Shown piece by piece: positions 35,492 to 52,335 of a stretch of DNA of 64,000 nt; within the stretch, counting starts at the first letter, position 1; each line of letters starts with the position of its first letter. The DNA comes from Thermoflexibacter ruber (GTDB taxonomy: Bacteria; Bacteroidota; Bacteroidia; Cytophagales; Thermoflexibacteraceae), in assembly GCF_900113045.1 (NCBI RefSeq), contig NZ_FONY01000005.1:124001-188000 (forward strand), written 5' to 3'. Under the pieces are notes generated by a model. The model had not been told where the DNA came from. It made no database searches and worked only from the letters and a program-made list of their open reading frames with translations. The translations under genes and the position numbers were made by a program.

Positions 35492-35530
35492 AAACATTGA
35501 CAAGGTGTAAAAGCCTTGCCAATGTTTTTT
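35492..35530 (+). terminator. Rho-independent terminator after the PhoX-like gene
   Basis: 14-bp stem with one mismatch (AAACATTGACAAGG / CCTTGCCAATGTTT), an 8-nt loop and a T6 run. It lies inside the longer TTG-started version of the next ORF, which supports the ATG at 35566 as its true start. Confidence 0.85.
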
Positions 35531-35565
35531 CTTTCAAATATATCTTTTACATTTTAGGAATACTT

Positions 35566-37449
35566 ATGAAAAAATATTACTTCTTTCTCATCATCTTATT
35601 ATTTCATCAGGCTTGTATCCCAGATAAGCAAGCAGAGCAAGAAACACCCACTTCCGAGCAAGCAAAAATCATTTTCTTGCAAGACATTGATTCCTTGTAT
35701 AGTAAGACAGAAAATCTGAAAAATGTAATTCTAAGCAATATAAGCGAAACAAAAATCCAACAAGCCTTTTTTGAGGCTCGCGCTGCATATAAACAAGTAG
35801 AGTTCTTGGCAGAACTTTACAACCCATTCACGGCTAAAAAGCTCAATCAGCCCGCCCTTGACGAAGTAGAGGAAGAAGACCCTAACGTAGTAGTTTATCC
35901 TGAGGGTTTCCAAGTGATAGAAGAATTACTTTTTCCTTATTTGCCTGAAAATAAAGAAGAAGCCTTAAAACATGTAGAAATAACTTTGGTAAATATTAAG
36001 CACCTCAAAAGAGTTTCAGAACCTAATACCCTAACAGATGCCCATATTTTTGATGCTATGCGATTGGAAGTTTTTAGGCTTATTACTTTGGGTATCAGTG
36101 GCTTTGATTCTCCTATTGCCAAAAATTCTTTGCCTGAGGCAATGGCTGTTCTCAGTACATTAAAAAAGTACATTGCTCTTTATGAAAAACCCATTCGTTT
36201 TGCTAATTTTAAATTAGTTGCTAATGAAAGTAAGCAGATAGAAGGATATACTAAACTCTGGCATAAAATAGACCAAGCAGAAAAATATATCCTCAAATTC
36301 AATGATTTTGATGCTTTTAATCGCGCTTATTTTATCACTAAATTTGCTAATCCTATTTCCGAGCTTTTACTCGACTACCAAATCAAATTAGGTATTCAAT
36401 CTTTTGAAGAACATCGCTTCCTGAAAACTACTGCTAAAACACTTTTTGAGGAAGATGCTTTTGATGAAACTTATTTTGCTCCTCTTTATAGCAGAAAATA
36501 TGCACATAATCAAGAAGTTGTAGCCTTAGGGAAAGCCCTATTTTACGACAACATTTTGTCAGGCAACAATCAACGCAACTGTGCTTCCTGCCACCAGCCC
36601 GAAAGAGCCTTTACTGATGGTTTGCCTAAAAGTGCATCTTTTGACGGCAAAGGTTTTATCAGTAGAAACGCCCCTACCTTGCTCAATGCAGGACTGCAAG
36701 CAAGCCTTTTCTACGAGGGTAGAGTAGCCTATATGGAAGACCAAATCACCGATGTACTGAGTGCCAAAGATGAAATGCACAGCTCAGTAAAAGAAGCAGT
36801 AAGCAAACTTAATCAAGATAAAAATTATCAACGACTTTTCCAAAAAGTATTTTTAACAGAGGAAGAAAATACACAAAGCCCCATTACAGAGGAGCAGTTT
36901 AAAATTGCTTTGGCTACATATTTACGCTCTCTAAAAAGCCTAAACTCTCGCTTTGATAAGTACATGAGAGGAGATAAAACTCAGCTTAATTCTCAAGAAA
37001 TCAACGGTTTTAATCTTTTTATGGGTAAAGCAAAATGCGGCACCTGCCATTTTATGCCTCTTTTTAATGGCACAGTGCCTCCTGTTTTTGATAAAATGGA
37101 AACAGAAATCATAGGCGTGCCTACCAAACCAGATACTGCTAAAGCTACTATAGACTCTGACAAAGGTAAATTCAATACGACTAAAATACCTTTGCATACT
37201 TTCGCTTTTAAAACTACTACGGTGAGGAATGTGGAAATGACCGCACCCTATATGCACAACGGCGTTTACCAAACCTTAGAGCAAGTAATAGATTTTTATA
37301 ATAGAGGCGGGGGCGAAGGCATAGGAATCCAGTTAGACAACCAAACACTACCCTTTGACAAGTTAAACCTAAATAAGCAAGAGCAAAAAGACTTGATAGC
37401 CTTTATGAAAAGTTTAACGGAAGTAGATTTTAAGAAGAAAGTAAAGTAA
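35566..37449 (+). CDS. di-haem cytochrome c peroxidase with long helical N-terminal domain
   Basis: 627-residue lipoprotein (signal ending HQAC). The first ~300 residues are all-helical and resemble an imelysin/EfeO-like fold. The C-terminal ~320 are a MauG/CcpA-type di-haem peroxidase, with haem-binding CASCH at 36580-36594 and CGTCH at 37036-37050. ALFYDNILSGNN, FYEGRVAYMEDQ and MTAPYMHNGVYQTLEQVIDFY are all peroxidase signatures. It would reduce peroxide, or oxidise a partner, in the periplasm. It follows the PhoX-like gene but is separated by a terminator. Its last 20 bp overlap the convergent PIN gene. Confidence 0.88.
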   Translation: MKKYYFFLIILLFHQACIPDKQAEQETPTSEQAKIIFLQDIDSLYSKTENLKNVILSNISETKIQQAFFEARAAYKQVEFLAELYNPFTAKKLNQPALDEVEEEDPNVVVYPEGFQVIEELLFPYLPENKEEALKHVEITLVNIKHLKRVSEPNTLTDAHIFDAMRLEVFRLITLGISGFDSPIAKNSLPEAMAVLSTLKKYIALYEKPIRFANFKLVANESKQIEGYTKLWHKIDQAEKYILKFNDFDAFNRAYFITKFANPISELLLDYQIKLGIQSFEEHRFLKTTAKTLFEEDAFDETYFAPLYSRKYAHNQEVVALGKALFYDNILSGNNQRNCASCHQPERAFTDGLPKSASFDGKGFISRNAPTLLNAGLQASLFYEGRVAYMEDQITDVLSAKDEMHSSVKEAVSKLNQDKNYQRLFQKVFLTEEENTQSPITEEQFKIALATYLRSLKSLNSRFDKYMRGDKTQLNSQEINGFNLFMGKAKCGTCHFMPLFNGTVPPVFDKMETEIIGVPTKPDTAKATIDSDKGKFNTTKIPLHTFAFKTTTVRNVEMTAPYMHNGVYQTLEQVIDFYNRGGGEGIGIQLDNQTLPFDKLNLNKQEQKDLIAFMKSLTEVDFKKKVK

Positions 37450-38249: not shown

Positions 38250-38666
38250 TTACTCAAAAACCCGCAATAAATTCCCATTGCGTTCCGCTTTGTATTTTTT
38301 TAAAGGGTTGATGGCAGGGGATTGAATCACCTTGCCATCTAAATCAAAAATAGACCCATGCACAGGGCATTGGAGGTGGTTGTTTTGGGGGATAAATTGT
38401 ACTACGCCTGCGGCATGGGTGCAGTATTGGTTAAATGCCAAATACTCACTTGTGCTTTTGCGAACTACAATGATGAGTTTTTCGTAAATAAAGCCTCCTA
38501 TTTTTTGCAAATCGGCAAACTTAGTTTCTGTCAAGTCAATGGTAAAATCTACTTTTTCTTCTTTTTTAGGCTCTACCTGCTCGCCTTTGGGCAGTACACA
38601 CGCCCCTGCACAAGCACATACGCCTATAAAAACACCCGTTTTAAGGATAAATGATTTTCTATTCAT
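38250..38666 (-). CDS. Rieske [2Fe-2S] domain protein, exported
   Basis: 138 residues with an N-terminal twin-lysine/arginine-like MNRKSFILKTG and a hydrophobic, cysteine-rich stretch (GVCACAGACVLP) that can act as a lipoprotein or Tat-like signal. The Rieske ligands are present as two pairs: YCTHAAG (Cys, His) and CPVHGSIFD (Cys, His). It would carry electrons on the outer face of the inner membrane. The redox partner is unknown; no cytochrome bc genes are beside it. The family's usual short stand-alone form has this length. Confidence 0.9.
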   Translation of the reverse strand: MNRKSFILKTGVFIGVCACAGACVLPKGEQVEPKKEEKVDFTIDLTETKFADLQKIGGFIYEKLIIVVRKSTSEYLAFNQYCTHAAGVVQFIPQNNHLQCPVHGSIFDLDGKVIQSPAINPLKKYKAERNGNLLRVFE

Positions 38667-38911: not shown

Positions 38912-40009
<1,098 letters not shown>

Positions 40010-41170
40010 TTATCTGAAAAGTAGTTGTGCAGTTTCTGCTACGTATGTTTTCACATTCATCCATGTATGTCCACCGGGTGTAATAAGGCTTTTATAGTTC
40101 ACTTTTTTGGCTTTTAGGTAGTCCATAAATTCCACTGTACCTTTGTAGAGAAAATCCTCATCACCCACCCCTATCCAAAATAATTTCAATTGCTTATTGG
40201 TGTTTTCGGGTTTTTCCGTAATCGACTTAAAATTACTTTCCATTTCTGAAGTAGATAAATAGGAGCTATAACAACAAATCCAAGCGAACTTGTCCATGTT
40301 ACCAAAAGCAGTTCTTAAAGTTTGTCCTCCTCCTCTTGAAAATCCCCCAATGGCTCGGTTTTCTCGATTGTTGAGTGTTCGGTAGTTTTTTTCAATGTAT
40401 GGTATCAAATTACTGACTAAATCCACTTCAAATAACTTGGCTCTATTTACGGCATCTGCGCCATCTCTTGAGGTGGGGTCAGCAGGTTTAGATCTTCCTT
40501 TTTGTTCGGCTATCTTAGCCATAGGATTTCCATAAGGCATGACAACTATCATAGGTTTGGCTTTGCCTTCAGCAATCAGATTATCAAGAATCAAGTTGGT
40601 GCGACCTACTTTAAAAAAAGTTTCTTCAGTATCCGTAGTCCCACTAATCAGATAAAAAACAGGATATTTTTTGGAAGCATCTTTATCATAATTGGGAGGT
40701 GTATAAACCACTACTGAGCCTGTAGTTCCTTCAACAGATGGATAATACTCGTAGGTAATCGTTCCATGCGGTACATTTTGCAAGGCATGAATCAAAGGCG
40801 GATTATCAGGCACATCTACCAAACTCGCTTTGAAGCGTTCGTTAGGAAAAAAAGACACATTGGCAGGGTCCATGACTGTAACTCCATCTACCTGAAAGCT
40901 ATACGGATAAATGTCTGGCTTAATGTTACTTACGGTTACACTCCAAATCCCAATAGAATCTTTGACCATCTCCATTGGACTTTTTAGAAACTGTCCACTT
41001 AGCTTTACTTCTTTAGCAGAAGGGGCTAAATAGCGGAAGGTTACAGTTTTATCGGAATTAATCTGAGGAGATACTACAAAGGGACCTCTTGGCGGCTGTG
41101 CTACGACAGCATGAGAGAAGCACCCCACAGCCCAAACGAGCAGTGAGAGGATAAATAGTTTTTTGCTCAT
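40010..41170 (-). CDS. secreted esterase with N-terminal E-set domain (CE1-like), paralogue 2
   Basis: 386 residues with the same layout as its neighbour: signal peptide (cleavage near VVAQ), E-set domain with VTFRYLAPSAKEVKLSGQF and [23 protein letters not shown], and an esterase domain. The latter has VFYLISGTTDTEETF, the nucleophile in GGFSRGGGQ and the histidine in PGGHTWMN. Compared with paralogue 1 it has an insertion of about 25 residues after MPYGNPMAK. The HGG of the oxyanion region is SGT here, which may alter activity. It is probably the first gene of a two-gene operon with paralogue 1. Confidence 0.9.
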   Translation of the reverse strand: MSKKLFILSLLVWAVGCFSHAVVAQPPRGPFVVSPQINSDKTVTFRYLAPSAKEVKLSGQFLKSPMEMVKDSIGIWSVTVSNIKPDIYPYSFQVDGVTVMDPANVSFFPNERFKASLVDVPDNPPLIHALQNVPHGTITYEYYPSVEGTTGSVVVYTPPNYDKDASKKYPVFYLISGTTDTEETFFKVGRTNLILDNLIAEGKAKPMIVVMPYGNPMAKIAEQKGRSKPADPTSRDGADAVNRAKLFEVDLVSNLIPYIEKNYRTLNNRENRAIGGFSRGGGQTLRTAFGNMDKFAWICCYSSYLSTSEMESNFKSITEKPENTNKQLKLFWIGVGDEDFLYKGTVEFMDYLKAKKVNYKSLITPGGHTWMNVKTYVAETAQLLFR

Positions 41171-41510: not shown

Positions 41511-44500
41511 TTACCTTACCGCATTTACTACCTTCATCACTCCATTCATAATGCGCCAATGCCCTGGGAAAGTACACACAAAGACATACTCCCCTGGTTC
41601 AGTTGGAGCAGTAAATTTGAGGCGGTAGCTTTGCTCTGGATTCACCAAAGGAGTCGCTACTATGACTTGTGGAATTGCAGGAACATAGTTTTTCTCTGCG
41701 CCATCTTTTTGTGTAATCATCTTATCTGCTTCTTTTCCAATAGTTTCCAAGCTGTAAGGTTGCCCTATGACGAGGTTGTGTTGCATCGCATCTGGATTTT
41801 CAAAAACGATTTCTACAGGCTTCCCTGCGGTTACAGTAAACTCCTTTTTATCAAACTTCAAAGTTTCTTTAATCGCTTTGAGGTGAATTATTTGTGCATT
41901 AGGGTCGCTGATTTCATTAGGAGAAAGCACATTCCAACCTACCAAAAGGCGAGCAATCCTTTCCTTGTGTTCATTTGCCACTCCTTGATAAAAAGACTTT
42001 AGGAAGGGGTTGTCCTCTGTTTTAGGCGTGTCTTTGCGCTTGGCGTTCCAACCTGAGCTTAGTCCTTTGAGGAGTGCATTGCTATACGCTTGGTCTAATT
42101 GGGTGCTGTATTTCAAAATGCTCACCGCAGAGTCTATGCTGGCAAGCGAGGCATAACTCCTTGTAGCTCTTTCCAATACGTAAGCGGTCATATTTGGCGG
42201 AGGTAGGTAAGTAAACTTCTTGGTAAAGCGGTTGTTCATTTCATTTCCTTCGTCAATCTTATTGTCTTTATCCACTACAATATCAAGTACATAATCACCC
42301 GCTTTATCAGAACTATATCCTAAGTTAAAAGTCCAAGGTCCATTGTTCCCTTTGGTAAGCGTTACGCTTTTTCCTGCTTCTATTCCGTCCATGTAGTTGC
42401 TTACTTGGTCAATTTTATAGCCTTGCCCTATCAGATTGATTTGGACTACAATGAGTTTACCTTTTGGAATATCGGTTTTTCCTTGATTTTTTAAGACAAT
42501 GCTGTAGCCAAAACCTTCCCTCACCACAGGCGTAGTAGTAGTCATGTTTACCGCTTCTACCACCAAATCCGCTTTTTCACTTACAGGGGTTTGTGGCTTG
42601 TCTTCATTGGTAGTCATTTGATGATGTTGGTGATTCATGCCGCCATCATTGGCTTTGGGTGTTTCTTTTTTGCCTAAGTATTTTTTAATCACTTGCTTAT
42701 ACAATTTTCCCCCTTTGCTTGTCAAGGCAATCGCAAAAGCATCAGGCAACCATCTGTCATTGATTTCGCTGGATTTTTCCAGTCTTTGCAAAATCGCATT
42801 TTCAGCTTCTGCGTTCAAAGGCATAGTAGAAAGTGCCAGCAAGGTATTTAAAACCACCAAAGGCTCTTTGTCATTCAAGCAATCGTTGGCTAATAAGGCT
42901 TTTACAGAACTTTCATTTTTTGGTAACACCTGAATTGCTGTTTTTCTAACTCCATGGCAAGGGTGTTTGAGAGCAGCAACTACCGCTTCCATTACCGCTG
43001 AATTAGACGCAGTTATCGCACCTAAGCCTTCCAAAGTTCGTAAGGCATGAATTGCAGTTGGGTTAATCCCGATTTCGTCTAAGGACTGGTCTTTGACCAA
43101 AGCAATGAGTTGAGAAACAACATCTTGATTATTCCTTTCTACTAACAAGCGTTGTGCTGTCATTCTCCAAAACATATTGCTATTTTTCAAACCTGCAATC
43201 AAAGTTTCAGGCTTGTTTCTGTCCAAAACCACAGGCTTGTAAGGTGGTGCTTTTTTCCAACTCACTCTATAAATTCTTCCGTGCGTAAAGTCCCTCAAAT
43301 CAGTTTCATACGCATTTCCTGCTCCATTGGTAAAGCCTTGTGGAGTAGGATTGTGTTGAATGATAAAACTATACCAATCTGCTATCCAAACTGCCCCGTC
43401 GGGTCCTACTTCTGCAAAAACAGGAGCTACCCACTCATCAGCTCCTGCCAACAAGTTAAATGCTTCTTTATCTTGGAAATCCGTCCCATTTTTCACCATG
43501 TTGTTTTGGTGAACTACGTGTCCTGTGGGTTCGCAAACGAACGCAATTTTATTCCAATATTTTTTAGGGAAAGCCCTTGCCGTGTAAAAGTTATGTCCTG
43601 CTGCAGCAGTAAACCCACCAAAAGCATCTACTTGGCGCACTTTGGGGGTAATGGTTTTCATGTCTTTGTGCGTATCAGTGCTTCTGCTTCCGTTATCTGT
43701 GCCTCTGGCAGAGTTGAAATATTGGTTCGCAATCGGCATATACCAACCGTGTGCATTGTTGGCAGTAGAGCCAAAAACATCTCCTGTTTCGTTGAAAGCA
43801 AAGCCCCAAGTATTATTATTAGTACTTGTAACATACTCTAATTGAGAGCCATCGGGTTTGAATCGGAAAAATCCTTGCCCAAATTCTAAGGAATCTTTGC
43901 CTACTTTGCCTTTGAAACCAGAGTAACCTATGCAACCCCACACCCAATTGTCAAAACCATAGTGTAAGTTGGAAGGACCCGCATGTGTATCAAAAGTACC
44001 AAAACCTGAAAACAAGATTTTCTTTTCATCTGCTTTGTTGTCTCCGTCAGTATCTTTCAAAAATAGCATGTGTGGAGCTTGGGAAACCACCAGACCTCCA
44101 TTGGCAAAGGTCATGCCCGTAGGGATACTTAATCCGTCAGCAAAACGAGTAAATTTATCTGCTTTCCCGTCATTATTTGTATCTTCGCAAAGCAAAATAT
44201 AATCGCTACCTCCTTCGTCTTTGCGTTCATTTGGATAATCTTTGGTGATAAGTACGTATAAGCGACCTTTCTCGTCCCAAGTCATGGCGATAGGGTGCAT
44301 TACGTTTGGTTCACTGGCAAAAAGTTCTAAGTTGAACTCTACAGGTACTTGAATATGTTTCATGGATTCCTCTGGCGAAAGAGCCAACTGCTTCAACTGA
44401 GGACCTGGACGTTGTTCATAGTTAGGTAACTTTGCTTCTATAAATTGGAACGGCTGTGGAGTGAGTGCGGCGTGTGCCTTTTTCGCTTTTTCGTCCACTG

Positions 44501-45227
44501 CCCACAAAATCCCTTTTTCTATCAAGTCGTGAAAACCTATGTGATTCCAAGTGCGCTCATCGTGTCCGTAAGCGGTGTAAAATACCTTACCTTTGCCATA
44601 AGTACGAGTCCAAGTATAAGGCTCTGTTTTTTGGTTGGGTTTGTCGTTGGCTTGGTCTGCTTTGATTTCTCTCACTGCCAACACATTGTTATCTGCTTGT
44701 AATTTATCGTGCAAATAAGTTTCATCAAAAGCAGTAAAAGGTTTTAAACCAGCAACTGCTGGATGATTGGGTTGGGTAAAAGTGGTCGTGATGCTGTCCA
44801 TTTTATGTCGCCAAAACTGCCCACCCACCATTTTTACATATTCCGCAGAGTTGCGAAAACAGTAAGATGCACAATGCACAGCAATCAAAGCCTTGCCACT
44901 ACCTACGTAGGTAAGCAAGGCTTTTTCTTGAGCAGGAGGCAAGCTATCCCAGTTGGCATAAATAAGCAGAGCATCGTACTGATTCAGGTTGTCAAGTGTA
45001 AGGTCTTGCAAATCATCTGTATAGGTAATATTTATTCCCTTACTTCCCAAAGCCATCATGAGCGAAGGCACACGCTCTATTGGCTTGTGGTGTCCATTAT
45101 CCCCTAAAAAGAGGACTTCCAAGCGGCGGGCATTGCCCTGCTTTTTTTGCTTTTGGGCAAAGGTCTGTGGTGAAAAACAGGCAAGCCATAGCAATAAAAT
45201 GTTGATGATAAGGAATGTTTTTTTCAT
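41511..45227 (-). CDS. giant secreted ThuA - PVC-type propeller - HEAT - CARDB - cupredoxin protein
   Basis: 1238 residues. After a signal peptide (cleavage near FAQ) the domains are: ThuA-like glutamine-amidotransferase fold (about 35-250; IAVHCASYCFRN, YTAYGHDERTW); a seven-bladed PVC-type dehydrogenase propeller (about 290-680; PNVMHPIAMTWDEKGRLYVL, DTNNDGKADKFTRFADGL); HEAT-like helices (about 690-860); a CARDB immunoglobulin-like domain (about 890-1015; NKIDEGNEMNNRF); and a C-terminal cupredoxin (about 1115-1238). The cupredoxin has copper ligands in MQHNLV and VCTFPGHWRIM. PVC-type proteins usually carry a CxxCH haem site; none is seen here, so the cupredoxin may replace it. Likely role: periplasmic sugar oxidation with electron transfer to copper. 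Confidence 0.87.
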   Translation of the reverse strand: MKKTFLIINILLLWLACFSPQTFAQKQKKQGNARRLEVLFLGDNGHHKPIERVPSLMMALGSKGINITYTDDLQDLTLDNLNQYDALLIYANWDSLPPAQEKALLTYVGSGKALIAVHCASYCFRNSAEYVKMVGGQFWRHKMDSITTTFTQPNHPAVAGLKPFTAFDETYLHDKLQADNNVLAVREIKADQANDKPNQKTEPYTWTRTYGKGKVFYTAYGHDERTWNHIGFHDLIEKGILWAVDEKAKKAHAALTPQPFQFIEAKLPNYEQRPGPQLKQLALSPEESMKHIQVPVEFNLELFASEPNVMHPIAMTWDEKGRLYVLITKDYPNERKDEGGSDYILLCEDTNNDGKADKFTRFADGLSIPTGMTFANGGLVVSQAPHMLFLKDTDGDNKADEKKILFSGFGTFDTHAGPSNLHYGFDNWVWGCIGYSGFKGKVGKDSLEFGQGFFRFKPDGSQLEYVTSTNNNTWGFAFNETGDVFGSTANNAHGWYMPIANQYFNSARGTDNGSRSTDTHKDMKTITPKVRQVDAFGGFTAAAGHNFYTARAFPKKYWNKIAFVCEPTGHVVHQNNMVKNGTDFQDKEAFNLLAGADEWVAPVFAEVGPDGAVWIADWYSFIIQHNPTPQGFTNGAGNAYETDLRDFTHGRIYRVSWKKAPPYKPVVLDRNKPETLIAGLKNSNMFWRMTAQRLLVERNNQDVVSQLIALVKDQSLDEIGINPTAIHALRTLEGLGAITASNSAVMEAVVAALKHPCHGVRKTAIQVLPKNESSVKALLANDCLNDKEPLVVLNTLLALSTMPLNAEAENAILQRLEKSSEINDRWLPDAFAIALTSKGGKLYKQVIKKYLGKKETPKANDGGMNHQHHQMTTNEDKPQTPVSEKADLVVEAVNMTTTTPVVREGFGYSIVLKNQGKTDIPKGKLIVVQINLIGQGYKIDQVSNYMDGIEAGKSVTLTKGNNGPWTFNLGYSSDKAGDYVLDIVVDKDNKIDEGNEMNNRFTKKFTYLPPPNMTAYVLERATRSYASLASIDSAVSILKYSTQLDQAYSNALLKGLSSGWNAKRKDTPKTEDNPFLKSFYQGVANEHKERIARLLVGWNVLSPNEISDPNAQIIHLKAIKETLKFDKKEFTVTAGKPVEIVFENPDAMQHNLVIGQPYSLETIGKEADKMITQKDGAEKNYVPAIPQVIVATPLVNPEQSYRLKFTAPTEPGEYVFVCTFPGHWRIMNGVMKVVNAVR

Positions 45228-45543: not shown

Positions 45544-46665
45544 TTAAACGTTCTTAAAATCAGGTAAATACATGATTTTCCCTCCTTGCAAGGCTGATTC
45601 ATGTGCCAAGATACCTACACTTGTCCAGTTGGCTGATTGCCAAGCATTAGGGAAAGGTTCTCTGTCCTCTACGATTGCCATGACGAACTCATGCGCTAAG
45701 TGCGGGTGCGAACCTCCATGCCCACTACCCTGCACGAAAGAAAGGTGTTGATTTTCTCCTAAGTCATACACACCTTTGGTGGTGAACTGTTGGATTCCTT
45801 CGGGCAGAAGATGTGCGTAATCAGGTACTTGTATCTTTTCAGGGATTTCGTGTTCAGGCTTTTTGGCGGTGTGGATTACGTGGTCTTCGCCTTCTATCAG
45901 CGACCATTCAAAGGATTTTTTAGAGCCATAGACTTCAAAACTTTCTCTGTACTGACGAGCTACATCAAAAAGTGAACGATACACATAAGCTGATAAATCG
46001 CTGTCTTTGAACTTGATGTGCGCACTTTCTATCGCAAAAGGAGAGTTGTAGTGTTTAATGAGTTCTTCTCTGATAGTTCCTGAACCAAAGCAAGAAACAT
46101 ATTCGGCTTCCAATTTGAGCAAACCTGTAACAGGACCTACACAGTGCGTAGCATAGTGCATAGGTGGCAATCCAGGCCAGTAGTCAGGCCAGCCGTCCAT
46201 GTCTTGCTGATGACTTGCTTTGAGGAATTGGACTTTGCCGAGTTCTCCTTTTTCGTATAACTCTTTGACAAAGAGAAACTCACGACTATACACTACCGTT
46301 TCCATCATCATATATTTTTTGCCTGATTCCTTGCAGGCTTTCACTATTTCCATGCACTCCTCTACCGAAGTCGCCATAGGTACGGTACAAGCCACGTGTT
46401 TGCCTGCTTTGAGTGCCTTCAAACTTTGCTCTGCGTGATTGTGGATAGGAGAATTGATATGCACAGCGTCTATATTGGGGTCAGCCAATAGTTCATCATA
46501 ATTCGAATAGCGTTTTTCAATGCCAAAAGCATCTCCAATTTGATTTAGCTTTTCTACATTACGCTGGCAAATTGCATACATATTAGTATGTGGATGTCGC
46601 TGATAGATAGGGATAAACTCTGCTCCGAAGCCAAGCCCTACGATTGCCATGTTCAACTTTTTCAT
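45544..46665 (-). CDS. Gfo/Idh/MocA-family NAD(P)-dependent oxidoreductase
   Basis: 373 residues. The N-terminal Rossmann fold has MAIVGLGFGAEFIPIY and then NIDAVHINSPIHNHAEQSLKA, with the catalytic-loop lysine in GKHVACTVPMAT (the family's EKP is CTVPMA here, so the lysine lies a few residues away). The C-terminal alpha/beta domain ends GSHPHLAHEFVMAIVEDREPFPNA. It has no signal peptide and is cytoplasmic. Such enzymes oxidise or reduce sugars, inositols or 3-keto sugars. The epimerase gene is 227 bp upstream, the ThuA-propeller gene downstream. Confidence 0.9.
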   Translation of the reverse strand: MKKLNMAIVGLGFGAEFIPIYQRHPHTNMYAICQRNVEKLNQIGDAFGIEKRYSNYDELLADPNIDAVHINSPIHNHAEQSLKALKAGKHVACTVPMATSVEECMEIVKACKESGKKYMMMETVVYSREFLFVKELYEKGELGKVQFLKASHQQDMDGWPDYWPGLPPMHYATHCVGPVTGLLKLEAEYVSCFGSGTIREELIKHYNSPFAIESAHIKFKDSDLSAYVYRSLFDVARQYRESFEVYGSKKSFEWSLIEGEDHVIHTAKKPEHEIPEKIQVPDYAHLLPEGIQQFTTKGVYDLGENQHLSFVQGSGHGGSHPHLAHEFVMAIVEDREPFPNAWQSANWTSVGILAHESALQGGKIMYLPDFKNV

Positions 46666-46892: not shown

Positions 46893-47726
46893 TCACAACT
46901 CATAATTTTTTTTAATAAAACTCAAGCTATCTCGCATCAGCTGCTCCTCAGAGTCAAACATTTTCCGCCAGATATTTGCTACCGCCAACTTGGGGCTAAA
47001 CGCCTCTACACTGAGCCAACCATCATAATTGATTGATTTTAAAGTAGAAAAAACACCTTGCCAATCTACATTCCCTTTGCCTACCGTGCTTCTATCATTT
47101 TCAGAAACCTGCACATGAATCAGGTGCTTTGCACATTTTTTAATTGCCTCTCCTATGTTTTTTTCCTCAATATTGGCATGAAAAGTATCAAACATCAGTT
47201 GGCAATTAGGGTGATTGACTGCTTCTACAAAACTAAGCAGTTCCTCTGCACAAGAAATCAAGTAACTTTCAAAGCGATTAAGGTACTCTAAACCTAAGGT
47301 GATATTAAACTGTTTAGCGTGTTCTGCCAAAGCGTGTATATTTTCCACTGCCCACTGCCACTCCTCTTGGGTTGCAGATTTGCCTGTAAAAACGCATAAA
47401 GCAGAGTGATAAGGTCCTGTTAGCATTGTTGCGCCTAAGTTTGCGGCACACTCTACCGCTTGCTTGTTGCGTGCTAAGGTCTTTTTTCGCATTTGTGCAT
47501 CAGGGCTGATTTGGTTAAAATCTGCACCACAGATAGTTACAGCGACTCTTCCTAAATCCAACTCGTCTAATTTTTTTGCCCACACTTTCCAATAGTCAGG
47601 GTTGGTATTAAAAATAGGAACTTCTACACCGTCAAAGCCTATTTCTTTAATTTGGTCTAAAATAGGAAAAAGAGATTCGTCTATTTGAGTCCCCCAGAGC
47701 AGGAGATTCATTCCAAATTTTGTCAT
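46893..47726 (-). CDS. sugar epimerase/isomerase of the D-psicose/tagatose 3-epimerase type
   Basis: 277-residue TIM-barrel protein of the AP-endonuclease-2/xylose-isomerase-like family. The N-terminus FGMNLLLWGTQIDESLFPIL closely matches ketose 3-epimerases. Metal-binding residues are suggested by LEYLNRFESYLI (Glu), LMFDTFHANIEE (Asp, His), HVQVSENDRSTVGKGNVDW (His/Arg) and WLSVEAF (Glu). Cytoplasmic. It would interconvert keto-sugars at C3, fitting a partner role with the Gfo/Idh oxidoreductase. Recently described enzymes of this fold also cleave 3-keto-glycosides, so lyase activity is an alternative. Confidence 0.88.
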   Translation of the reverse strand: MTKFGMNLLLWGTQIDESLFPILDQIKEIGFDGVEVPIFNTNPDYWKVWAKKLDELDLGRVAVTICGADFNQISPDAQMRKKTLARNKQAVECAANLGATMLTGPYHSALCVFTGKSATQEEWQWAVENIHALAEHAKQFNITLGLEYLNRFESYLISCAEELLSFVEAVNHPNCQLMFDTFHANIEEKNIGEAIKKCAKHLIHVQVSENDRSTVGKGNVDWQGVFSTLKSINYDGWLSVEAFSPKLAVANIWRKMFDSEEQLMRDSLSFIKKNYEL

Positions 47727-48051: not shown

Positions 48052-49986
<1,935 letters not shown>

Positions 49987-50306: not shown

Positions 50307-51170
50307 ATGAAAGCCTTAATCAAGAAATCGGTAGATAGCCCTGTGCATTCTTTTATGGTGCGGGAATTGATAGAGCCACAGTTTGACCCTACTTGGCACT
50401 TTCACCCGCATTATCAGCTATTTACTGTTTTAGATGGCAATGGTACTCGCTTTGTAGGGGACAATATTAGGCTATTTATGCCCGAGGATACTGTTTTTTT
50501 AGGTCCTAATATTCCCCATGTTTGGCGTAGCGACCATTCAGAAAAGAATCATGCTCATGGAATTGTGGTTTACTTTACTGAGGATTTTTTAGGAAAAGAT
50601 TTTTTTGAAAAACCCGAGATGTACTTGATTAAACAACTTTTTGCTAATAGTCAACGTGGTTTGGAAATTATAGGAGATACGCGTATTTCACTGCAAAAAA
50701 GTCTGATGGAACTGGTCAAGCTAAGTGGCTTTGATAGTATCCTAAAATTACTTAGCATTTTAAACGATTTATCCCATTCTACTGAGTATAAATACATTAC
50801 TACCCCCAATTACGTCAATTCACATAAAATTTCAGAAACAGAACGTATGCAAAAAGTGCATGAGTACGTAATGCAACATTTTAAAGAAGAGATTAGTTTA
50901 AGTGAGTTAGCTTCTTTGATTTGCATGAGCGAATCTGCTTTTTGCCGTTATTTTAAAAGTAGAACCAATAAGACCTTTTCCGATTTTGTAAGCGAAGTGC
51001 GTATTGGTTATGCTTGCAAATTACTCATGGACAACAAGTTAAGTGTTACACAAATTGCCTTAGAAAGTGGGTTCAATACCATATCTAATTTTAACCGCCA
51101 ATTTAAAAATCTCATGGGTAAGTCCCCTCTCCAATATCAAAAGGAGTTTTTATCACAGGTAATGTTCTAA
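50307..51170 (+). CDS. AraC-family regulator with cupin sensor domain
   Basis: 287 residues. The N-terminal cupin-like sugar-sensing domain (about 15-110) contains WHFHPHYQLFTVLDGNGTRF and LGPNIPHVWRSD. The C-terminal AraC double helix-turn-helix (about 185-285) has ISLSELASLICMSESAFCRYFKSRTN and IALESGFNTISNFNRQFK. Divergently placed next to the double esterase gene, it is the likely regulator of the esterase/ThuA/oxidoreductase/epimerase block. The tandem TTTTGACT repeats before its own gene are candidate binding sites. Confidence 0.92.
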   Translation: MKALIKKSVDSPVHSFMVRELIEPQFDPTWHFHPHYQLFTVLDGNGTRFVGDNIRLFMPEDTVFLGPNIPHVWRSDHSEKNHAHGIVVYFTEDFLGKDFFEKPEMYLIKQLFANSQRGLEIIGDTRISLQKSLMELVKLSGFDSILKLLSILNDLSHSTEYKYITTPNYVNSHKISETERMQKVHEYVMQHFKEEISLSELASLICMSESAFCRYFKSRTNKTFSDFVSEVRIGYACKLLMDNKLSVTQIALESGFNTISNFNRQFKNLMGKSPLQYQKEFLSQVMF

Positions 51171-51186: not shown

Positions 51187-52335
51187 CTACTGAAAAGGAT
51201 TAGCAAATTTTGGGTTTTTGATAAACTCCTCATCGGTAAGCATTTGTAAGAATGCCAAAATTGCTTGTTTTTCTTGTGGAGTTAAAAAAAGTTTGACAGT
51301 ATTAGGTGGCAAAAACTGTTCATTGCTTGCCTCGATGATAAGCGGGTCAAGCGTTTGACTCATCTTAATATGTTGGTCGTAGTGTTCCAACACCTGTTCT
51401 AAGGTATTAAATCTACCATCGTGCATATAGGGTGCAGTCAAAGCAATATTTCTCAAAGTTGGTGCTTTGAATTTGCCTCTATCATTAGGATTGCCTGTTA
51501 CTGCTTGTAAGCCAATATTTAAGGTAGCATCTGTATCTAATCCGTTGTTATGAAAACCTCTGAATCCATTGCGATCTCCTGCCGTAGTAATTTGCAAATG
51601 ACAGTCGCCACAATTGCCTCCACGCAAATTGGTTTGAGGGACAGGGTGGGTAAAAAACAAATCCATGCCCTTCAGTTCCAAGTCTGTGGGAGTGTATTCT
51701 CCTCGCAAATATTTGTCATACTTTGAGTTAGCAGAAATAAGTGTTCTCTCAAATTGGGCTATTGCTTTGGCTATATTTTGGGCAGTAATTTTTTCACTGC
51801 CAAAAACTAATTTGAACTTAGGTGGATAGATAGAGGTTTCTTGCAGTTTTTTTACCGCCTGCTCAAGGCTTTGATGCAATTCTATGGGGTCTTGGATAGG
51901 TGCCAAGGCTTGTTCTTCTAAGCTACTTGCTCTCCCGTTCCAAAAAAAGCGATTTACCCAAAGTAAATTTGCCAAAGACATAGAATTCTTGCTACCCACA
52001 ATTCCCTGAATACCAGTACTAAATCTTGTATTATCACTAAACGCTTTTTCCTGTTTGTGGCAAGAAGCGCAAGACATTGTATTATTACCTGAGAGCTTTT
52101 TTTCATAAAATAACATTCTCCCTAACTCTACTCCTTGTATAGTCAAAGGATTATCCTCTGGAATATTCACACGCTCGCTAAACATAGCAGGGATTTTCAA
52201 AGGATAAGACTGAGGCGCATTTACATTCCAAATCTCCTCTTCCTTGGTAGGCGTTACCTGCTCACTATTGTTACAAGCAGTCATCATACTTGTAAATAGC
52301 AGAATGGTAAGAATCGCCGTATTTATTTTCATCAT
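51187..52335 (-). CDS. di-haem cytochrome c peroxidase, lipoprotein
   Basis: 382 residues. The signal ends in MMTAC (lipobox), so the protein is probably anchored in a membrane facing the periplasm. The haem sites are CASCH in MSCASCHKQEKAFSD and CGDCH in GGNCGDCHLQ. Peroxidase signatures LGRMLFYEKKLSGNN, FWNGRASSLEEQA and TAPYMHDGRFNTLEQVLEHY are present. It is a standard-length member, unlike the longer paralogue at 35566-37449. It is convergent with the AraC gene, 16 bp between stops. Confidence 0.93.
   Translation of the reverse strand: MMKINTAILTILLFTSMMTACNNSEQVTPTKEEEIWNVNAPQSYPLKIPAMFSERVNIPEDNPLTIQGVELGRMLFYEKKLSGNNTMSCASCHKQEKAFSDNTRFSTGIQGIVGSKNSMSLANLLWVNRFFWNGRASSLEEQALAPIQDPIELHQSLEQAVKKLQETSIYPPKFKLVFGSEKITAQNIAKAIAQFERTLISANSKYDKYLRGEYTPTDLELKGMDLFFTHPVPQTNLRGGNCGDCHLQITTAGDRNGFRGFHNNGLDTDATLNIGLQAVTGNPNDRGKFKAPTLRNIALTAPYMHDGRFNTLEQVLEHYDQHIKMSQTLDPLIIEASNEQFLPPNTVKLFLTPQEKQAILAFLQMLTDEEFIKNPKFANPFQ

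Follow-up and report, generated by a model that had tools for sequence, protein, structure and literature searches.

Introduction

In rhizobia, ThuA and ThuB constitute a 3-keto-trehalose system, and multi-domain copper nitrite reductases carry extra haem or cupredoxin domains. Published 3-keto-glycoside pathways place oxidation at C3 before cleavage (PMC9007349), and in one of them a Gfo oxidoreductase cooperates with two sugar-phosphate-isomerase-type proteins (PMC10628242). Lac161_ORF7, a haem-type protein of TIGR02604–HEAT–cytochrome c architecture, released glucose from lactose when purified, which its authors read as hydrolysis (PMC5342196), and we met no other published activity of a TIGR02604 protein. 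Here, we analyse a 64,000-nucleotide stretch of Thermoflexibacter ruber DNA (contig NZ_FONY01000005.1, positions 124,001 to 188,000 of the forward strand; hereafter the window), and within it an open reading frame (ORF) whose product joins a ThuA domain and a TIGR02604-type propeller to a C-terminal domain predicted to bind copper.

A ThuA–propeller fusion ends in a predicted type-1 copper domain

The ORF runs along the minus strand; on the plus strand, the frame of the same range is full of stops. It encodes a protein with the domain order ThuA, DUF7133/PVC propeller, HEAT-like region, CARDB, helical piece and cupredoxin. Its parts, including the predicted copper ligands, are as follows:

41511..45227, minus strand: whole ORF, 1238 aa, six-part architecture (Pfam and NCBIfam)
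44499..45116, minus strand: ThuA domain, residues 38-243 (Pfam PF06283; model against 1t0b)
43254..44378, minus strand: DUF7133/PVC-type propeller, residues 284-658 (Pfam PF23500, TIGR02604, model)
42738..43235, minus strand: HEAT-like region, residues ~665-830 (HEAT_2 below its cut-off; alpha-helical in the model)
42219..42572, minus strand: CARDB beta-sandwich, residues 886-1003 (Pfam PF07705; Foldseek)
41916..42188, minus strand: helical piece between CARDB and cupredoxin, residues ~1014-1104, poorly conserved (alignment, model)
41529..41879, minus strand: cupredoxin, auracyanin/azurin-like, residues 1117-1233 (Pfam PF00127, PDB match, model)
41778..41780, minus strand: copper ligand His1150, invariant in 41/41 sequences
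41547..41576, minus strand: copper-ligand loop C1218-TFPG-H1223-WRI-M1227, ligands invariant in 41/41 sequences

Pfam searches placed residues 38-243 in the ThuA family (137.8 bits against a cut-off of 33.4), residues 284-658 in DUF7133 (411.2 bits, cut-off 27) and residues 886-1003 in CARDB (32.6 bits, cut-off 22.7), and HEAT_2 stayed under its own cut-off (23.3 bits, cut-off 27.7). The NCBIfam model for the PVC-type domain, TIGR02604, matched with 241.7 bits (cut-off 122.2), which makes the protein a member of that family. Moreover, the modelled N-terminal domain superimposed on the ThuA-like structure 1t0b (Z 22.5, rmsd 2.5, 203 aligned), and the CARDB part of the model on the CARDB structure 2kl6 (Foldseek, TMt 0.71). 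The initial annotation had described a 1238-residue fusion devoid of a haem c motif, and this description was confirmed: Pfam and NCBIfam recognised the domains apart from HEAT, and no CxxCH was present in the window protein, which rules out a haem motif elsewhere in it, or in 45 matched homologue ORFs, five of which span only part of the protein. The window protein accordingly lacks the C-terminal cytochrome c with CxxCH that characterises a "PVC-type heme-binding CxxCH protein", and this TIGR02604 name can mislead, because members scoring far above the cut-off lack the motif. Judged by eye, the N-terminus resembles a Sec signal peptide, so the window protein is probably periplasmic.

The C-terminal domain is a predicted type-1 copper cupredoxin. 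Residues 1117-1233 matched the Copper-bind profile PF00127 (42.4 bits, cut-off 21.2), and a phmmer search of PDB sequences returned first 6kol (1.7e-15) and then auracyanin A, 2aan (7.4e-15). An AlphaFold2 model of residues 880-1238, computed from 41 input sequences (mean pLDDT 88.3), had Roseiflexus auracyanin 6kol as its top match (Z 19.4, 1.8 A, 119 aligned), with auracyanin A close by (Z 19.3, 1.3 A, 119 aligned); the structural comparison with auracyanin and azurin that the initial annotation had proposed for the C-terminus thus returned a cupredoxin fold. That annotation had seen copper ligands in MQHNLV and VCTFPGHW of the tail; the predicted ligands H1150, C1218, H1223 and M1227 are kept in all 41 full-length sequences including that of the window. 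The Copper-bind match, the fold and the H, C, H and M ligands of type-1 copper together place the domain in the cupredoxin (plastocyanin/azurin) superfamily. We take the ligand spacing to be that of azurin; the azurin equivalog TIGR02695 scored 38.5 bits, below its cut-off of 105.1.

An azurin-type domain of the same kind, 69% identical to that of the window over 127 aa and with the copper ligands kept, also ends a caspase-like protein of Runella sp. MFBS21 (L052:6128-7405, plus strand), whose gene is surrounded by similar caspase-like and formylglycine-generating-enzyme-like genes, all of these being identified by eye.

A family scan with one genome per species yielded 45 loci, including representatives of Runella, Spirosoma, Emticicia, Aquirufa, Arcicella and Fibrella. 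In 40 of these loci (40/45 full-length) the complete domain order is found again, at 55-67% identity, which excludes chance or a frameshift artefact as its origin. Mean identity to the window protein was 0.79 for the propeller, 0.64 for the cupredoxin, 0.37 for CARDB and 0.22 for the preceding linker.

Copper and haem tails alternate behind Bacteroidota propellers

We surveyed 395 Bacteroidota genomes. A cupredoxin profile, with at most ten candidates scored per genome, matched in 114 of the 395 genomes, short single-domain frames included. DUF7133 matched at E 1e-50 in 44 of the 395, in a search that scored up to about four candidates per genome and of which part of the rows was fetched, and its proportions differ from those of whole genomes. 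The window protein and 99 ORFs from the DUF7133-search rows form a set of 100, from which an incomplete second ORF of L154 had been removed; the larger set of 150 propellers that contains these 100 also includes focal-family loci and loci selected by cupredoxin, and leans to copper. In all counts, haem denotes a CxxCH motif after the propeller, confirmed by profile in locus L155 only; counted from the C-terminus, the motif stood at 82-145 residues in 52 of 59 rows and at 259-462 residues in the remaining seven.

Among the 100 propeller ORFs, 57 carried CxxCH, 35 a cupredoxin, eight neither and none both. Haem motif and cupredoxin were likewise never found together in the set of 150, in which the copper propellers had no CxxCH anywhere. 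Fusion to ThuA was observed in 37 of the 100 (32 copper, four tail-less and one with CxxCH), and the 63 propellers without ThuA comprised 56 with CxxCH, three with copper and four with neither. As the initial annotation held, the cupredoxin occupies the place where many relatives carry a CxxCH domain. Within the 37 fused proteins, ThuA was N-terminal in 28 and C-terminal, behind the cupredoxin, in nine; its C-terminal position in ten of the 150 proteins of the larger set indicates that ThuA, propeller and cupredoxin associate in more than one order. An N-terminal ThuA fused to such a propeller had also been singled out as notable. The ThuA–propeller–cupredoxin combination is so, but it is not rare: more than one Bacteroidota family has it, several in all, and ThuA may stand at either terminus.

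Each of the four tail-less ThuA-propellers (L124, L127, L128 and L129) is followed, on the same strand, by a separate gene for an azurin-like protein, at a gap of less than 150 nt in three loci and of about 1.2 kb in L127, the Copper-bind domain of this gene being confirmed by Pfam for L124 only. Genes for a TIM barrel and a Gfo oxidoreductase come next in three of the four loci, the exception being L127. The genome of T. ruber itself holds seven DUF7133 matches, namely four with CxxCH, two without CxxCH in the part read, and the window protein, which was also the sole cupredoxin match at E 1e-10 when 10 of 14 candidates were scored.

The tail has been exchanged within the family

We reconstructed maximum-likelihood trees of the propellers, which are unrooted. 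The first tree lost L155 to redundancy reduction at 80% identity; in the second, L155 and six others were restored and nine long-branch or remote rows removed. One side of a branch with support of 100/99 was made up of the ThuA-linked propellers and of L101, for which no ThuA was detected. The second tree required at least four changes between haem and copper, and the first, without L155, required three. The clade of the window protein comprised 29 rows, of which 24 were copper, four without a tail and one haem. This last protein, L155, is a ThuA–propeller–HEAT–cytochrome c protein, its cytochrome c confirmed by Pfam, and it was placed within the copper clade, among L094, L090 and L092, as the sister of copper-type L094 (99/94). 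Before the tail, L155 and L094 share 73% identity across 854 aa, and beyond that point blastp found no similarity; the pair thus appears as one clear recent tail exchange in the clade of the window protein.

Copper propellers in which no ThuA was detected (L093, L096, L097, L112, L117 and L120) were nested among haem types. Furthermore, in a tree of the copper domains (121 columns, 25 of 56 inner branches well supported, deeper order unused), the split azurins grouped with free-standing azurin-like proteins (100/99), as did the fused tails of L130 and L099, and stood apart from the remaining fused cupredoxins. In this subclade, one copper domain thus seems to have given way to another. Collectively, the L155/L094 exchange and this replacement mark the propeller tail as exchangeable, as judged from the sequences.

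The initial annotation had gone further and suggested a swap from haem to copper in the window protein. As the copper tail is common to its clade, which is nearly all copper, and the tree is unrooted, no haem-to-copper change is demonstrated for the window protein and a recent swap in its lineage is unsupported; the sole clear recent exchange is that of L155.

The exchange bears on the role of the copper domain. Cupredoxin folds are found in copper-handling proteins too, and the domain might be one for copper binding, storage or assembly, with no part in catalysis. We consider this highly improbable, given that its nearest structures are auracyanins and azurins, that its four ligands are invariant in 41/41 sequences, and that a cytochrome c substitutes for it in the very close relative L155. 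A role as electron carrier appears likely, and we hold it more firmly than the enzymatic reading developed below; electron flow through the domain is suggested by the exchange of haem and copper at the same position.

Gfo and TIM-barrel genes accompany the fusion

Three neighbouring genes of the window were assigned by Pfam:

45544..46665, minus strand: Gfo/Idh/MocA oxidoreductase, same strand as the fusion gene and ~316 nt upstream of it
46893..47726, minus strand: xylose-isomerase-like TIM barrel, ketose/keto-sugar epimerase-like
50307..51170, plus strand: cupin/AraC-type regulator, divergent

Of the 42 propeller-holding family loci, the window included, 38 carry a Gfo/Idh/MocA gene in the same orientation and less than 2.5 kb upstream, at distances of 10-766 nt. 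As for the other four, the Gfo gene of L029 overlaps the called start, L025 and L045 start at a contig end, and L027 has no Gfo gene. The fetched stretches held a TIM-barrel gene in 26 of 42 family loci and a relative of the AraC-type regulator in 20 of 42. The closest PDB sequences to the Gfo protein were glucose-fructose oxidoreductase (9.6e-22) and DgpA (5.6e-20), the latter an enzyme that turns puerarin into 3''-oxo-puerarin by oxidation (PMC11239390). The best PDB relatives of the TIM barrel were D-tagatose 3-epimerases (8e-35), with the 3-keto-D-glucoside 4-epimerase 6wn6 lower (2.6e-15). Linked genes of both superfamilies, members of which act in 3-keto-glycoside pathways, are conserved in the family, but neither protein reaches a curated NCBIfam cut-off.

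Across the wider survey, a Gfo neighbour was present in 18 of 27 loci with N-terminal ThuA, whereas none of 56 CxxCH loci without ThuA had one (Fisher p 6e-12, a value that ignores kinship), 13 of the ThuA-N loci having longer stretches in this comparison. Over stretches of like length (<=7.5 kb) the difference persisted, at 9/14 versus 0/55 (p 4e-8, again ignoring kinship). The nine loci with C-terminal ThuA had neither Gfo nor TIM nearby.

A second, shorter copper propeller family, of about 650-850 aa (L098, L103-L108, L113, L114, L118, L119, L121 and L206), mostly adjoins a protein related to a Rufibacter protein with PF06439 (3-keto-disaccharide hydrolase), a domain confirmed by Pfam in L206. 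Relatives covering the PF06439 domain were found in 10 of 12 fetched loci of this second family, partially in L104; L107 matches just the C-terminal part of the protein, and L113 gave no match. Six PF06439 matches lie elsewhere in the T. ruber genome. L109, L110, L111, L115 and L116 hold proteins of 361-559 aa whose cupredoxin is N-terminal; the C-terminal part of those in L110 and L115 is similar to the C-terminal part of the PF06439 protein, and weak Gfo and ThuA matches lie nearby in L109 and L110.

Other genes surround the operon in the window. Three esterase genes (PF00756, with two stretches in the 642-aa one) flank it at 38912-41170 and 48052-49980, all on the minus strand; two of the three carry CBM_48, and blastp found no counterpart of them in related loci. 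Two di-haem MauG-type peroxidases (35497-37449, plus strand; 51187-52335, minus strand) and a Rieske protein (38250-38666, minus strand) are possible redox neighbours, the peroxidases having relatives in five and eight other loci. Among viral contigs, 30 stretches fit a peptide pattern, and no cupredoxin-domain relative is encoded in any of them; among plasmids, 94 records matched, with no single place covering 80% of the query.

The propeller shares the fold of PQQ sugar dehydrogenases

A model of residues 30-840 (mean pLDDT 78.9, with stretches below 50 within the propeller) matched best the pyrroloquinoline quinone (PQQ) sugar dehydrogenase 3a9g (Z 23.9, rmsd 3.1, 282 aligned), followed by the AA12 protein 6h7t (Z 22.5) and 3das (Z 21.3). 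The propeller is therefore of the PQQ-sugar-dehydrogenase type in its fold, and in its fold only. DFPase and lactonase propellers matched the model at Z ~20, a few units under the best match, so the fold by itself leaves the propeller chemistry unfixed. In an alignment of 46 propellers, the position of H415 held His in 25/25 copper sequences versus 2/21 with the haem motif.

These matches, with 3a9g, 6h7t and 3das at their head, would suit a plain PQQ-dependent aldose dehydrogenase that relies on PQQ scavenged from outside and ends in an azurin; the presence of ThuA and of the gene neighbours would then be incidental. When a profile of the 46 propellers was compared with PDB sequences, no usable alignment to PQQ enzymes was obtained, and the PQQ-binding residues could not be aligned. 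Moreover, ThuA is retained at either end in distant relatives and the Gfo gene stands upstream in 38 of 42 family loci, which argues against an incidental association, and we regard this alternative as rather improbable. A PqqC search matched none of its controls.

Alternatively, the propeller could be a redox-inactive hydrolase or lyase, with the cupredoxin serving another enzyme or sensing redox state. Such a protein would agree with the glucose freed from lactose by purified Lac161_ORF7 (PMC5342196) and with the lactonase and DFPase matches; however, a tethered redox tail exchangeable between haem, fused copper and separate copper is hard to explain on a hydrolase, and the top propeller matches are PQQ sugar dehydrogenases and AA12, so that we consider it unlikely. 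We infer instead that the propeller is a dehydrogenase, and the lactose cleavage by Lac161_ORF7 would fit a carbohydrate substrate for such propellers.

Discussion

We consider it fairly probable that the window protein is a soluble exported (periplasmic) sugar- or glycoside-oxidising enzyme with a tethered azurin as electron carrier, acting in a 3-keto-sugar-like pathway. The propeller would oxidise a sugar or glycoside, as its fold, its gene neighbours and one published relative suggest. Electrons would exit singly via the C-terminal type-1 copper domain, which is backed by sequence and model; with HEAT/CARDB as its linker, this domain could swing from the propeller to an acceptor of the respiratory chain in the periplasm. 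By likeness to ThuA/ThuB of rhizobia, the ThuA domain may then process the keto-sugar, and the product might be imported and finished by the epimerase-like TIM barrel and the Gfo/Idh/MocA oxidoreductase, whose association with the family is observed and whose reaction we infer. The copper tail would play the part that cytochrome c plays at the end of other PVC-type proteins, and it can be fused, separate or replaced by haem.

Several observations weigh against sugar oxidation in such a pathway. The fetched stretches of 9/27 ThuA-N loci and of 9/9 ThuA-C loci contained no Gfo gene, and the Gfo and TIM proteins of the window reach the cut-off of no curated NCBIfam family. Judged by eye, both proteins lack a signal peptide and look cytoplasmic, while the fusion looks exported, which means that they may act on a later product. 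By sequence, a broad propeller profile reached PQQ enzymes unconvincingly (2g8s, E 0.89), and PqqE over the cut-off was absent from the T. ruber genome, which is 99.6% complete, so that PQQ would come from outside or the propeller would use another cofactor.

A broader possibility, which we put forward tentatively, is that Bacteroidota possess an exported oxidative system for sugars or glycosides with a plug-in carrier, in which a propeller–ThuA unit works with copper (fused or separate) or cytochrome c and the carriers have been repeatedly exchanged. If so, sugar electrons would enter respiration by a haem-free route in the copper form. A direct handle on propeller function is offered by the copper variant together with its partner genes, and by the 73% identical natural pair L155/L094.

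Comparison with known systems

Neither the parts of this architecture nor the notion of a tethered carrier is new. In the open-licence PMC literature, none of the matches listed was a paper on the copper form, on ThuA and Gfo as its partners or on exchanges of the tail; genome annotations lay outside that search. Auracyanin and azurin share the fold and the four copper ligands of the C-terminal domain, which in the window protein forms the end of a large fusion. The propeller fold (Z 21-24) is common to PQQ sugar dehydrogenases and AA12 enzymes, which are remote in sequence (12-14% identity), and ThuA/ThuB of rhizobia share the ThuA domain. The PVC-type haem-binding CxxCH proteins, such as Lac161_ORF7 (PMC5342196), have the same propeller and HEAT region and a C-terminal electron-transfer domain, whereas the window protein has no CxxCH, carries a cupredoxin and CARDB, and has ThuA in front. 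Tethered multi-domain copper nitrite reductases (PMC7201279) also join a redox enzyme to a covalent carrier, with another enzyme, fold and pathway. The 3-keto-glycoside pathways (PMC9007349, PMC10628242) have in common with this locus the Gfo/Idh/MocA and isomerase/epimerase-type TIM-barrel partners; unlike in these pathways and in ThuA/ThuB, the ThuA domain of the window protein looks exported and forms one chain with a propeller that brings its own copper carrier.

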